From a bacterium (GTDB lineage: Bacteria > Desulfobacterota_D > UBA1144): a stretch of DNA of 40,047 bases. Positions 35,710-40,047 of this stretch are shown one piece after another. The stretch covers positions 1 to 40,047 of the forward strand of contig JABILG010000007.1 of NCBI GenBank assembly GCA_018654605.1. The letters are read 5' to 3'. The translations under genes and the position numbers were made by a program. The notes below the pieces were generated by a model. It did no database searches. It was not told where the DNA came from and saw nothing but the letters and a program-made list of their open reading frames with translations. Numbering within the stretch: the stretch's first letter is position 1; each line of letters begins with the position of its first letter.

Positions 35710-37176
35710 ATAAATAGAGAAGTAAAGATTAAAGAGTCCCTAACTTTTGACGATGTTCTACTCGTTCCTTCCTACTCGGCTATAATGCCCTCTGCTGTAA
35801 ACGTTAAAACTAAAATAACAAAAAAGATTTCTCTAAATATACCGATTATTAGCGCTGCTATGGATACTGTTACCGAAGCTAGAACCGCAATAGCTATGGC
35901 CCAAGAAGGTGGACTTGGTGTCATACATAAGAATATGAGTATTCAAAATCAGTCGGAGGAGATTCAAAAAGTTAAGAAGTATGAAGGCGGTATGATAATT
36001 GAGCCTCACACTATTTCACCTCAATCTACCGGAAAGCATGCACTTGATATAATGACTTCAAAGAATTTTACCGGACTACCTGTTACTGAGGAAGATGGGG
36101 CTTTGTTGGGAATCATAACTATGAGAGATCTTAGATATGAAAAAAATCTTCATTATAAAGTTAGCAAGCTTATGACTCAGAAAGTAGATCTTAAAGTTGT
36201 TGAGGCTGGAACGAGTCCTAATGAAGCTCGTGAATTACTTCATAAATATAAAATAGAAAAATTACCCGTGGTAGATAAAAAGTTTAGGCTTCAAGGTCTA
36301 ATTACAATGAAAGATATTCAAAAAAGTAAAGAATTTCCTAATGCATCAAAAGATAAACAAGGAAGATTGCTAGCAGCTGCAGCTATTGGTGTTGGCTTAG
36401 ATATGGAAGATAGAGTCGAAAACTTAATAAAAAGCGGTTTAGACATTTTATTTATTGACACCGCTCATGCACATTCCAAAAAGGTTATTAATGCATTAAA
36501 ATTGATTAAAAAGAAACATAAGAGTATTCAAGTTGTTGTAGGAAATGTTGCTACCACTGATGGAGCAAAAGAATTAATTAAGGCTGGTGCTGATTCATTA
36601 AAGGTTGGAATAGGGCCTGGCTCAATTTGTACTACAAGAATAATTGCAGGAATAGGAGTTCCGCAGCTCACAGCCATTATGGATGTGTGCACTACTGCAA
36701 ACAAGAACAATATTCCAGTTATAGCAGATGGTGGTATTAAATATTCAGGTGATATAACTAAGGCTCTTGCTGCAGGCGCTAGTTGTGTAATGATTGGCAA
36801 CCTCTTAGCAGGAACAGACGAAGCACCTGGGGAGATGGTTTTATACCAAGGTAGAACTTTTAAAACTTATAGAGGAATGGGCTCTATAGAGGCAATGAAA
36901 GAAGGAAGTAAAGATAGGTATTATCAAGACGATATAATTGATTCAAAACTTGTTCCCGAAGGAATCGAGGGAAGAGTCTCTTATAGGGGGCCAATTAACA
37001 AAGTTGTTTATCAGTTGGTTGGCGGTCTTAAGGCTGGTATGGGATATACAGGGTCTAAAGATTTATCTATTCTAAAGAAAGCTAAATTCCTTAAGCTTAC
37101 AAATGCAGGACTTAAAGAAAGTCATGTGCATGATATTTCTATTAGTAGGGAAGCACCAAACTATTCATTAGACTAA
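35710..37176 (+). CDS. guaB: Inosine-5'-monophosphate dehydrogenase, probable ATA start
   Basis: GuaB oxidises IMP to XMP, the first committed step to GMP. Catalytic Cys is in [13 protein letters not shown] near residue 306; two CBS domains lie around 95-210 ([19 protein letters not shown]); the C-terminal flap and [16 protein letters not shown] are present. The family N-terminus [20 protein letters not shown] is encoded upstream of the first ATG (35785), but the frame back to its stop (35695-35697) has no ATG, GTG or TTG. ATA at 35710 lies seven bases after AGGA (35699-35702) and gives 488 residues, the usual length. Using the ATG would remove 25 residues including the conserved first strand. 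The preceding stop TAG ends two bases before the ATA, so coupling is likely. Confidence 0.85.
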
Positions 37177-37181
37177 GGATT

Positions 37182-38717
37182 ATGGACTATAGCAAAGTAT
37201 TAATTTTAGATTTTGGTTCTCAGGTTACAAAGTTAATAGCGCGAAAAATAAGAGAATTAAATATTTACTCAGAAATTCTTCCATATGAAACTAATCTTAA
37301 AAAAATAGAAGATATTAATCCAGACTGCATAATCCTTTCTGGAAGCCCTGCAAGTGTGCATGATAAAAAAGCTCCACAGCCAGATTTAAGAATCCTAGAT
37401 CTGGAGGTGCCCATATTAGGTATATGCTATGGAGCTCAGTTGCTATCAAAAGTTTTGGGCGGGAAAGTCGCAAAATCAAAAATTAGGGAGTTCGGACCTT
37501 CTAAGCTTAAAAAGATTTCAAATTCAAAGCTATTAAAAAATATAAAGAACAATGAAGTATCATGGATGTCTCATGGAGATACAATTGTTAAGCTACCAAC
37601 TAAAATAAAAGTTATAGCAAAATCCGAGTTCGGATCTATATCATTATTTTCTTCTAAAGACTCTAGAATTGTCGGAACACAGTTTCACCCTGAGGTTGTC
37701 CATACTGAATTCGGCAAACAATTTATAAAAAATTTCTTAGTAGACATTGCAGGATGCAAGCAAACTTGGAAGCCAGGGAAGCTTGTTAAGCAAAAAATAG
37801 AAGAAATTAAAAATCTCATAGGTAAAAATGTAGCTATATCAGCAATTTCTGGTGGAGTTGATTCAAGTATTTCTTCAGTTCTGGTCAGTAGAGCAATAGG
37901 CAATAAACTTAAATGCTTCATTGTTGACACAGGGCTAATGAGGCATAATGAAGTAAAAGAAATAGTCCCAGTCCTTAGAAGTCTTGGAGTTAACCTAAAA
38001 GTTATTAACGCGGGCAGTCTTTTTCTTGGAAGATTAAGAGGTATTATAGATCCAGAAAAGAAAAGAAAAATAATAGGTAAAACATTTATTGAATTATTCG
38101 ATAAAGAATCAAAAAAAGTTTCAAATGCAAAGTTTTTAGTGCAGGGGACTTTGTATCCTGACGTTATTGAAAGTGTTAATGTAAGTGGACCTTCTGCTGT
38201 AATTAAATCTCATCATAATGTTGGCGGGCTTCCTAAGAATATGAAGCTTTCATTAGTAGAGCCTCTAAGGGATCTATTTAAAGACGAAGTTAGAGACTTA
38301 GGTAAAGCTTTAAAAATTAAAAAAAGTTTAATTGGTAGACATCCTTTTCCTGGCCCAGGGCTGGCAATAAGAATTATAGGGGAAGTAACAAAGGATAGAG
38401 TTAAGCTGTTGCAATTAGCTGATAAAATATTTATAGATATTTTAAAAGAAAAAAATCTTTATGATAAAATATGGCAAGCTTTTTGTGTTCTTATACCAAT
38501 AAAAACTGTAGGTGTAATGGGTGATGAAAGAACTTATGAAAATACAATTGCAATAAGAGCAGTTAATAGTGTTGACGGAATGACTGCAAATTGGGCACGG
38601 ATCCCTTTTGATACTTTAGATTTGATATCCTCAGAAATTATTAATAATGTTAAGGGGATTAATAAGGTGGTTTTTGATATTTCTAACAAGCCACCTAGTA
38701 CAATAGAATGGGAGTGA
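37182..38717 (+). CDS. guaA: GMP synthase (glutamine-hydrolysing)
   Basis: GuaA turns XMP into GMP. The 511-residue protein has the class I glutaminase with Cys in LGICYGAQLL around 79, His/Glu in FHPEVVHTEFG around 168, the ATP-pyrophosphatase P-loop SGGVDSSI around 225, and the C-terminal dimerisation domain with HPFPGPGLAIRI around 387. It ends with the usual PPSTIEWE. Five bases after guaB. The 3' end of guaA is a known integration site for genomic islands, and an integrase follows 277 bases downstream. Confidence 0.96.
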   Translation: MDYSKVLILDFGSQVTKLIARKIRELNIYSEILPYETNLKKIEDINPDCIILSGSPASVHDKKAPQPDLRILDLEVPILGICYGAQLLSKVLGGKVAKSKIREFGPSKLKKISNSKLLKNIKNNEVSWMSHGDTIVKLPTKIKVIAKSEFGSISLFSSKDSRIVGTQFHPEVVHTEFGKQFIKNFLVDIAGCKQTWKPGKLVKQKIEEIKNLIGKNVAISAISGGVDSSISSVLVSRAIGNKLKCFIVDTGLMRHNEVKEIVPVLRSLGVNLKVINAGSLFLGRLRGIIDPEKKRKIIGKTFIELFDKESKKVSNAKFLVQGTLYPDVIESVNVSGPSAVIKSHHNVGGLPKNMKLSLVEPLRDLFKDEVRDLGKALKIKKSLIGRHPFPGPGLAIRIIGEVTKDRVKLLQLADKIFIDILKEKNLYDKIWQAFCVLIPIKTVGVMGDERTYENTIAIRAVNSVDGMTANWARIPFDTLDLISSEIINNVKGINKVVFDISNKPPSTIEWE

Positions 38718-38776
38718 ATTAGTGCATAAGTATTCTTCCCTAATATGCTGTAATCATTGACTATTATATAATATAA

Positions 38777-38975
38777 ATTACTACCAAATTACTACCATTT
38801 TTTGACTAATCTTCTTTAAGATGTATATTGTATCTTCATAACCTGTTGTAATGATTAGGTTATAGAAATTGGTATAAAAAATTACTACCAAAATACTGAC
38901 TATCAAGACCTACTATTGAAGTAGAAAAGTATTCTGGGGGTTTAGTCAGTAAAAATGCAGTAAAAATTACTACCA
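38777..38975 (+). repeat. Four direct copies of ATTACTACCA upstream of the integrase
   Basis: ATTACTACCA occurs at 38777-38786, 38788-38797, 38881-38890 and 38966-38975, all in the same orientation; AA or AAA precedes each. The first two are 11 bp apart, one helical turn. Spacing and position between guaA and int suit arm-type sites of a tyrosine recombinase or the binding sites of an excisionase. The whole 38718-38993 stretch holds no gene that I can see. Confidence 0.75.
38802..38829 (+). promoter_or_regulatory. Promoter candidate of the integrase gene
   Basis: TTGACT - 16 bases - TATATT, lying between the first repeat pair and the third repeat, about 165 bases before the integrase ATG. 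Overlap with likely integrase binding sites would allow autoregulation. By-eye call. Confidence 0.4.
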
Positions 38976-38993
38976 ATTTGGGACAATAACATT

Positions 38994-40047
38994 ATGGTAA
39001 GTGGAAGGAAAAAAAATCCAGATAATAAAAAAACCAGAAAAAAACGAACTTCTTTAAGTCATAAAATGACACATAGAGAAATACTCATTGATAGTAATAA
39101 TTGGGGTGATAAGTTCAACATTGGTAGTTTGGTTTTGTATAAAACAGAAATTCAAAAAGATATATATCAATACACTTTTTGGGTTCCCACTATGGGAAGA
39201 ACTTTGAAAAGAACCACAAGAACATCCAATTATGATGATGCAGTTAAAATTGCACAACAAGAATATTACAAAGTTCAAAATATTATGAACACAGGTGGTG
39301 GAACATATACCAAAAAGACCTTACGAAGTTCAATTGATGAATATTTAAATGAGAGGTATAAGTTTGAAGTATCACCTAAACTTATTACAGAGGGTAGGTG
39401 GAAAAACATAAGTTCTATTTTAAGAAAAAATCTAATTGAGTTTATAGGACAATATGATTTCCCCTTATCAATGATTAATGGTGCGATATTTAAACAATAT
39501 TTTAATTGGAGGAAAAAGGACAAAAGTGGAAATCCTACTAATCTCGCACTCTCTACATTGAGAAATGAGAAAAGTAGTATTAACCATTTCTTTAGGTGGT
39601 GTATCAAAGAAAAAAGATATATGAGTAATAACCAAGAACCCATATTCCAAGAAAATGTTTTTAGAAATATGACCCCTAATAAAAGAAACCCATTCTCTTT
39701 ATCGCAATATAGAAAACTCTACAAATATATTCAAAAGTGGAGTAGTGATGGTTTTATAAAACATTCCCCTGAAACAAGACATATCAACAATATGGTTTGT
39801 AATTATATAATGGTTCTTGCGAATTGTTCCTTGAGACCTAGCGAATTATTAAAAGTGAAGTGGCACGACATAACCTTTGTAGAAAAGAAAGTTCAAGGGA
39901 GAATAATATGTGAGATAGCAGTTCCATTAGAAAATAGTAAGGTAAGGAAATATAGAGATGGAATATGTAATAGAGGGGACAAACTACAGGATATTAAACG
40001 ATTATCAAAGTTTCATAACCCAGATGACTTTGTATTTACAAATAGTG
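38994..40047 (+). CDS. int: Tyrosine recombinase/integrase, N-terminal part (runs off the window)
   Basis: A long frame from ATG 38994 stays open to the right edge (351 codons visible). It has a very basic start (GRKKNPDNKKTRKKRTS), a core-binding SAM-like domain around 105-215 with RWKNISSILRKNLIEFIG, and the beginning of the catalytic domain: box I Arg in NCSLRPSELLKVKWHDI around 283-299. The His-x-x-Arg and Tyr boxes are beyond the edge. A TAA lies ten codons upstream in frame, so the ATG (or an ATT one codon earlier) is the only start. Orientation is the same as guaA, and the gene lies next to the repeats, the typical first gene of an integrative element at the guaA 3' end. Confidence 0.85.
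   Translation, partial: MVSGRKKNPDNKKTRKKRTSLSHKMTHREILIDSNNWGDKFNIGSLVLYKTEIQKDIYQYTFWVPTMGRTLKRTTRTSNYDDAVKIAQQEYYKVQNIMNTGGGTYTKKTLRSSIDEYLNERYKFEVSPKLITEGRWKNISSILRKNLIEFIGQYDFPLSMINGAIFKQYFNWRKKDKSGNPTNLALSTLRNEKSSINHFFRWCIKEKRYMSNNQEPIFQENVFRNMTPNKRNPFSLSQYRKLYKYIQKWSSDGFIKHSPETRHINNMVCNYIMVLANCSLRPSELLKVKWHDITFVEKKVQGRIICEIAVPLENSKVRKYRDGICNRGDKLQDIKRLSKFHNPDDFVFTNS

Follow-up and report, generated by a model that had tools for sequence, protein, structure and literature searches.

What is a tyrosine recombinase gene doing directly behind guaA, cut off by the edge of a contig? The contig, C14, is one of 19 in a MAG of 1.02 Mb (genome G000). It was analysed over its entire length of 40,047 bp, a stretch that we call the window. 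The 3' ends of guaA genes are documented integration targets (PMC9376610, PMC5704250), as a preliminary description of the window had noted, and the recombination site of GIsul2 at guaA is GAGTGGGA (PMC9376610). If an element entered here too, how is the guaA frame kept, where is the element's other end and what lies between the two?

We compared the window with the remaining contigs of the same genome, with 13 relatives from the family and with 58 genomes of the phylum. We conclude that the end of C14 is very probably attL, the integrase-proximal end of a guaA-specific integrative element, and that this element sits in an accretion hotspot together with earlier, integrase-less mini-elements that resemble CIMEs.

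Results

The guaA end and the integrase

GuaA has 511 amino acids with GATase and GMP_synt_C domains. A guaB-like ORF (35785-37176) lies directly ahead of its gene, and the closest relatives' GuaA proteins are 89-96% identical (96% in G003). The guaA end had been described as intact, and it is: the frame runs through PPSTIEWE to its stop (Table 1). The last codons, AGTACAATAGAATGGGAGTGA, include GAATGGGA, to be compared with GAGTGGGA, the core of the guaA-targeting GIsul2. At the insertion point itself the window reads GAATGGGAG, a GAGTGGGA-like core, where G003 and G008 both have GAGTGGGA; the stop codon is TGA in the window and TAA in those two relatives. From the stop codon onward the window departs from the relatives' sequence.

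Table 1. Positions of the features discussed, in window coordinates unless contig C2 is named
Feature	Position	Strand	Remarks
guaA (GMP synthase), host target gene	37182..38717	+	frame intact to ...KPPSTIEWE and TGA
Putative attL core AGTACAATAGAATGGGAGTGA, the final guaA codons	38697..38717	+	degenerate in-register copies on contig C2; PMC9376610
Element left end (putative attL arm and integrase leader)	38718..38993	+	26.8% GC; unlike the sequence after guaA in every relative compared
Tandem 11-bp direct repeat AAATTACTACCAAATTACTACCA, putative arm-type sites	38775..38797	+	one of two such repeats in the window
Third putative arm-site copy AAATTACTACCA	38879..38890	+	
Second tandem 11-bp repeat CAGTAAAAATGCAGTAAAAAT	38947..38967	+	repeat unit also given as CAGTAAAAATG
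Fourth putative arm-site copy AAATTACTACCA	38964..38975	+	shortly before the integrase start
Tyrosine recombinase (integrase), N-terminal 351 aa	38994..40047	+	open to the final base; gene cut by the contig end
Array of three mini-units (L154)	C2:78107-81106	reverse	conserved ends, degenerate guaA-end cores; before the photolyase-related gene

The integrase gene starts 276 bp past the guaA stop on the same strand, the adjacency looked for in a guaA element. The recombinase that had been claimed here, in the orientation of guaA and running off the right edge, is thus borne out by this gap, by 351 open codons and by a match to the PHROG family phrog_1 'integrase' (E=2.4e-19, residues 30-311). 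The protein has an arm-binding-like N-terminus, a core-binding domain and the first part of the catalytic domain, including the box-I Arg in the motif LRPSELLKVKW; the portion with H-x-x-R and the Tyr falls past the contig end. Matches to Pfam Phage_integrase (0.0015) and SAM_5 (0.011) are below threshold and NCBIfam matches are likewise weak, because the catalytic domain is cut. A predicted structure of low confidence, made with no alignment (mean pLDDT 39), places three strands and a helix at residues 46-101. The GC content of the gene, 30.2%, lies in the lower 4% of the window's 1-kb stretches.

The gene is open to its last base, as the preliminary description said, but the window comprises all of contig C14, so the edge that it runs into is where the assembled sequence stops; the assembly holds nothing to its right. 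The cargo that had been placed there is absent from the assembly altogether, as are attR and the integrase C-terminus. DNA and Pfam Phage_integrase searches of the genome's other contigs found neither the rest of the integrase nor cargo. Three contigs were rejected as cargo: C3 and C15 hold housekeeping-type genes (plus a MORN gene on C3) without a guaA-end core, and on C19 housekeeping genes predominate, next to a tRNA-like fragment that has repeats of another kind.

Between guaA and the integrase lies a leader with a repeat structure of its own. AAATTACTACCA occurs in it four times, two of the copies in tandem at an 11-bp period. A scan of the 40-kb window for tandems of period 11 with at least 10 matching positions returned two, both in this 276-bp stretch. 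Arm-type sites of tyrosine integrases look like short tandem repeats adjoining the integrase gene, and the leader repeats look like such sites.

How unusual is the integrase? At the sensitivity used, searches of the 58 phylum genomes, IMG/VR, species genomes, phages and plasmids returned no relatives, and a search of the PDB by sequence gave chance matches only. The arm repeat ATTACTACCAAATTACTACC turned up in two IMG/VR contigs, which we judged to be chance; neither stretch encodes an integrase relative. The window genome's other two tyrosine recombinases, on C7 and C9, look like an Xer pair. Twelve of the 13 family relatives have exactly two Xer-like matches and the least complete has one, so that across 14 family genomes the window integrase is the sole tyrosine recombinase beyond one or two Xer-like ones. 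Among the matches listed for the 58 phylum genomes, no other recombinase lies beside guaA.

The empty site and the right flank

A relative without an insertion would show what normally follows guaA. At locus L073 of G008 the next gene after guaA, 95 bp on, is a deoxyribodipyrimidine photolyase-related one (DPRP, assigned through PF04244 in the G003 homologue), and the stretch is identical in the public contig NZWJ02000001.1 (bacterium isolate NAT509). The empty-site genome that the preliminary description asked for therefore exists. The interval between guaA and the DPRP gene is 1282 bp in G003. In the window genome the DPRP gene lies on contig C2 together with a backbone of about 13 kb, which runs from this gene to cimA in synteny with G003 and leaves 2.6 kb to the contig end; C2 is collinear with G003 and G008 downstream of guaA. 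Because this gene and the collinear backbone sit there, C2 reversed is the right flank of the guaA site.

Assemblies tend to break at guaA. The guaA contig ends 110 bp past the gene in G002, 2 bp past it in G005 and inside the integrase in G000, as expected of a site that is repeat-rich or variable between strains. In G001 (C3, L045) a block of ORFs resembling kinases, phosphatases and glycosyltransferases takes the place of the photolyase-related gene, and its start overlaps the guaA stop. Within 8 kb downstream of guaA, G001 has no convincing copy of the guaA end (one match is at chance level), and G006, G007, G008 and G010-G013 have none.

Small units with guaA-like junctions

What fills the 2.6 kb between the DPRP gene and the end of C2? 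We find three units in tandem, of 1148, 714 and 352 bp. The first contains a gene for a MORN-repeat protein of 242 aa, the second a 146-aa ORF that runs on the opposite strand, and the third debris without a clear gene. Using the last 21 bases of guaA as reference, four guaA-end-like cores appear at 376, 1524, 2238 and 2590 of the reversed C2 tail (about 80731, 79583, 78869 and 78517 in C2 coordinates), with 4, 6, 7 and 6 mismatches. Three matches at no more than 6 mismatches were reached in none of 300 second-order Markov trials (mean 0.12), and four at no more than 7 in 3 of 300. The fourth core, 15 bp ahead of the DPRP start codon, would be the outermost junction.

The units share their ends as well as their cores. 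Cores 1-3 each have a conserved right end ahead of them. These right ends share 83-93% identity over 111-137 bp; they open with 11-bp repeats in tandem, either TTTGTGCAAAG or TTTGTATAAAG, and extend as far as the core. The same left end of about 250 bp follows cores 1 and 3, and TGGGA is invariant at five junctions from three genomes. In G003 the first ~85 bp of this left end follow guaA directly, starting at the stop codon, and this places the C2 cores in register with the 3' end of the gene. The only tyrosine recombinases detected in G003 and G005 are XerC/XerD, and the units of these two genomes are therefore integrase-less. The locus thus has tandem units at one site, bounded by att-like repeats and lacking an integrase of their own, as in accretion by CIMEs.

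Over 16 kb of C2, arm-like tandem repeats occur solely at the right ends of units. Their pattern, TTTGTRYAAAG, is a different repeat from the AAATTACTACCA of the integrase leader. Among the 58 genomes it has six sites (three in G000, one in G003 and two in G005) against none for the reversed control, and in alignments all six are unit right ends, the one on C2 of G005 being cut by the contig end before its core. Searches of viral contigs for the unit-end patterns found none.

These results bear in part on the claim that the element restores the guaA end by a repeated core. The downstream repeat exists: four degenerate copies lie on C2, in the collinear right flank, before the photolyase-related gene. 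But they bound small, integrase-less units. The element's own attR is not assignable among these junctions because the assembly gap breaks the interval, and we found no guaA-end copy flanked by the window's own arm repeats (AAATTACTACC).

Genes and repeats elsewhere in these genomes

Unit genes (L154, L189, L190) often carry a promoter-like motif, TTTTTGATAYAAT, so close to the start codon (about 6 nt ahead of it) that their transcripts may be leaderless. G005 is enriched in the motif, with 10 sites where the reversed control has 0, and the 40-kb window lacks it. MORN-repeat genes lie at several contig ends: L191 (G005 C2:33200-36728), L171 (G000 C3) and L173 (the end of G000 C13); there they may cause assembly breaks.

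Two genomes share a pair of short tandem repeats of another kind, TGCTACAGTATTTGCTACAGT, with a period of 12 (L257/L072 at C19:1-1200, and L260 at the start of C10 in G005). On C19 they lie near a fragment like a tRNA 3' end and two small ORFs, and they may mark a second family of integrase-less elements, one with a tRNA gene as its site. On C13 of G005 (L189:1450-1900) a tRNA-Arg(cct) lies near tandem TTTGGGAACGATTTGGGAACAAC and a second tRNA-3'-like piece, adjoining a unit with a guaA-type core; this locus is a possible further attachment site.

Discussion

The reading that we favour, an element with its attL at the C14 end, supposes the following steps. A tyrosine recombinase would insert the element into the last ~20 bp of guaA, crossing over within or beside the ATGGGA core. 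The guaA frame would be kept, with the stop codon and the bases that follow it coming from the element. Its integrase would contact two kinds of site, the core and, just within the left end, the tandem 11-bp arm repeats. On the far side, on C2, at least three small units would remain from earlier integrations, either relics of mini-elements or mini-elements that could be mobilized in cis; across the gap between C14 and C2, integrase and units would share one interval. Because their arm repeats differ from the window's, the units would have been served by another integrase. Several points count against the reading: the C-terminal catalytic residues lie beyond the contig, searches of the genome turned up no other piece of this integrase and no guaA-end copy with the window's own arm repeats beside it, no relative of the integrase appeared in the collections at the sensitivity used, and the ends of MAG contigs are liable to misassembly.

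Could the small units be the point of the site rather than its debris? The guaA 3' end might be a standing platform for one-gene cassettes in a streamlined marine lineage, on which helper integrases of larger elements move units of 0.35-1.15 kb in trans. The units would bring integrase-type ends and often a promoter-like motif of their own, while helper integrases come and go; the whole would be a functional analogue of a cassette array, with a protein-gene attachment site replacing attC. We consider this improbable, though the best placed of the alternatives. The window integrase itself is probably not such a helper, as the differing arm repeats argue, on sequence grounds, against its mobilizing the units.

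Slightly less probable is the related proposal that the array has the window integrase as its dedicated, integron-like recombinase, which would capture one-gene units in trans at guaA. The integrase lies close to the anchor gene, one-gene units stand in an array downstream in the same genome, and no other non-Xer tyrosine recombinase occurs in the 14 family genomes. Against this, the leader arms differ from the unit arms, and units occur in G003 and G005 without the window's integrase. Nor do the unit junctions resemble attC sites. Folded as DNA on both strands, three junctions gave z-scores from -1.6 to -0.06, no better than shuffles, and we rejected an attC reading. The part of the catalytic domain in which IntI integrases carry their specific additional domain is not confidently covered in this cut gene.

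Two further explanations are each unlikely, and to a similar degree. The integrase may be the lone remnant of a decayed element of which only the first kilobase is left beside guaA, an outcome that the preliminary description had named as fatal to its own claim. The assembly lacks the cargo, attR and the integrase C-terminus, and the neighbouring units are integrase-less and partly decayed. Yet degraded remnants are usually frameshifted, whereas this integrase has 351 stop-free codons; with complete arm-like tandem repeats in its leader and an intact core beside it, it does not look decayed. The break within the gene is an effect of the assembly and no evidence on the DNA itself. The objection is weakened by this, and no further, as the catalytic end of the gene lies past the contig edge.

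The second explanation concerns C2: its guaA-end-like sequences may not be att sites at all, and the units may be duplications of MORN genes with a shared promoter and terminator, spread by homologous recombination. MORN genes do recur at the ends of C2, C3 and C13, and the promoter-like TTTTTGATAYAAT is common to the units. But the same unit ends also bracket genes that are not MORN genes, a 127-aa lipoprotein-like ORF in G003 and the 146-aa ORF in G000. A TGGGA core aligned with guaA terminates every right end, the same left end follows guaA in register in G003, and the right ends carry tandem 11-bp repeats as integrase arms do.

It is very unlikely that the final ~1.3 kb were wrongly assembled onto guaA from a strain variant or a foreign integrase. 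Such errors do occur at the ends of MAG contigs, the integrase is low in GC and the contigs of G002 and G005 break at the same gene end, but guaA passes seamlessly into a leader with arm repeats, and the divergence starts at the stop codon, the known insertion point of guaA elements, whereas a random chimera would not be expected at an att core.

How does an element of the kind we favour compare with known systems? GIsul2 and related guaA islands (PMC9376610), ATE-1 and the Brucella IncP island (PMC5704250) use the same target gene and position. They share further traits with the locus studied here: a similar core (GAATGGGA here, GAGTGGGA there), a guaA frame that is kept, and several tandem att sites per locus. 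They differ in that no close relative of the integrase here was detectable in any collection searched, and in that the neighbouring units here are far smaller (0.35-1.15 kb) and integrase-less. In this respect the units recall the CIMEs of tandem accretion (PMC5704250), which likewise lack an integrase but keep ends with att-like cores; at a single gene end they lie in tandem with an element that has an integrase. Unlike CIMEs, the units here carry one gene or none between conserved ends, with no sign of conjugation genes or of actual mobilisation.

Two other systems share the layout at a larger scale. The ssrA islands of Dehalococcoides (PMC3146451) also stand in tandem behind a single essential gene, whose 3' end recurs as a direct repeat at the boundary of each island, and as at guaA here some have an integration module and some do not. 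They use a serine recombinase and a tmRNA target, where this locus has a tyrosine recombinase, guaA and far smaller units. The tycheposons of streamlined aquatic bacteria (PMC10872708) likewise combine a tyrosine recombinase beside a gene-end attachment site with a streamlined genome of about 1 Mb, but they are islands of 4-200 kb bordered by tRNA genes, and here the border is a protein-gene end and the units are very small. We did not assign the element to the tycheposons, as its attachment gene is guaA and not a tRNA gene.

An integrative element at guaA in an accretion hotspot is thus of a known kind; what is unusual is the small one-gene format of the units in a streamlined lineage. Here a protein gene serves as an integration hotspot in genomes of about 1 Mb that are otherwise without a detected tyrosine recombinase beyond XerC/XerD, and part of the variable gene content beside guaA consists of tiny units with ends like recombination sites. 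If such units move with helper integrases, this would explain the tendency of assemblies to break at guaA, and it would let genes turn over cheaply in genomes that have scant space for mobile DNA.
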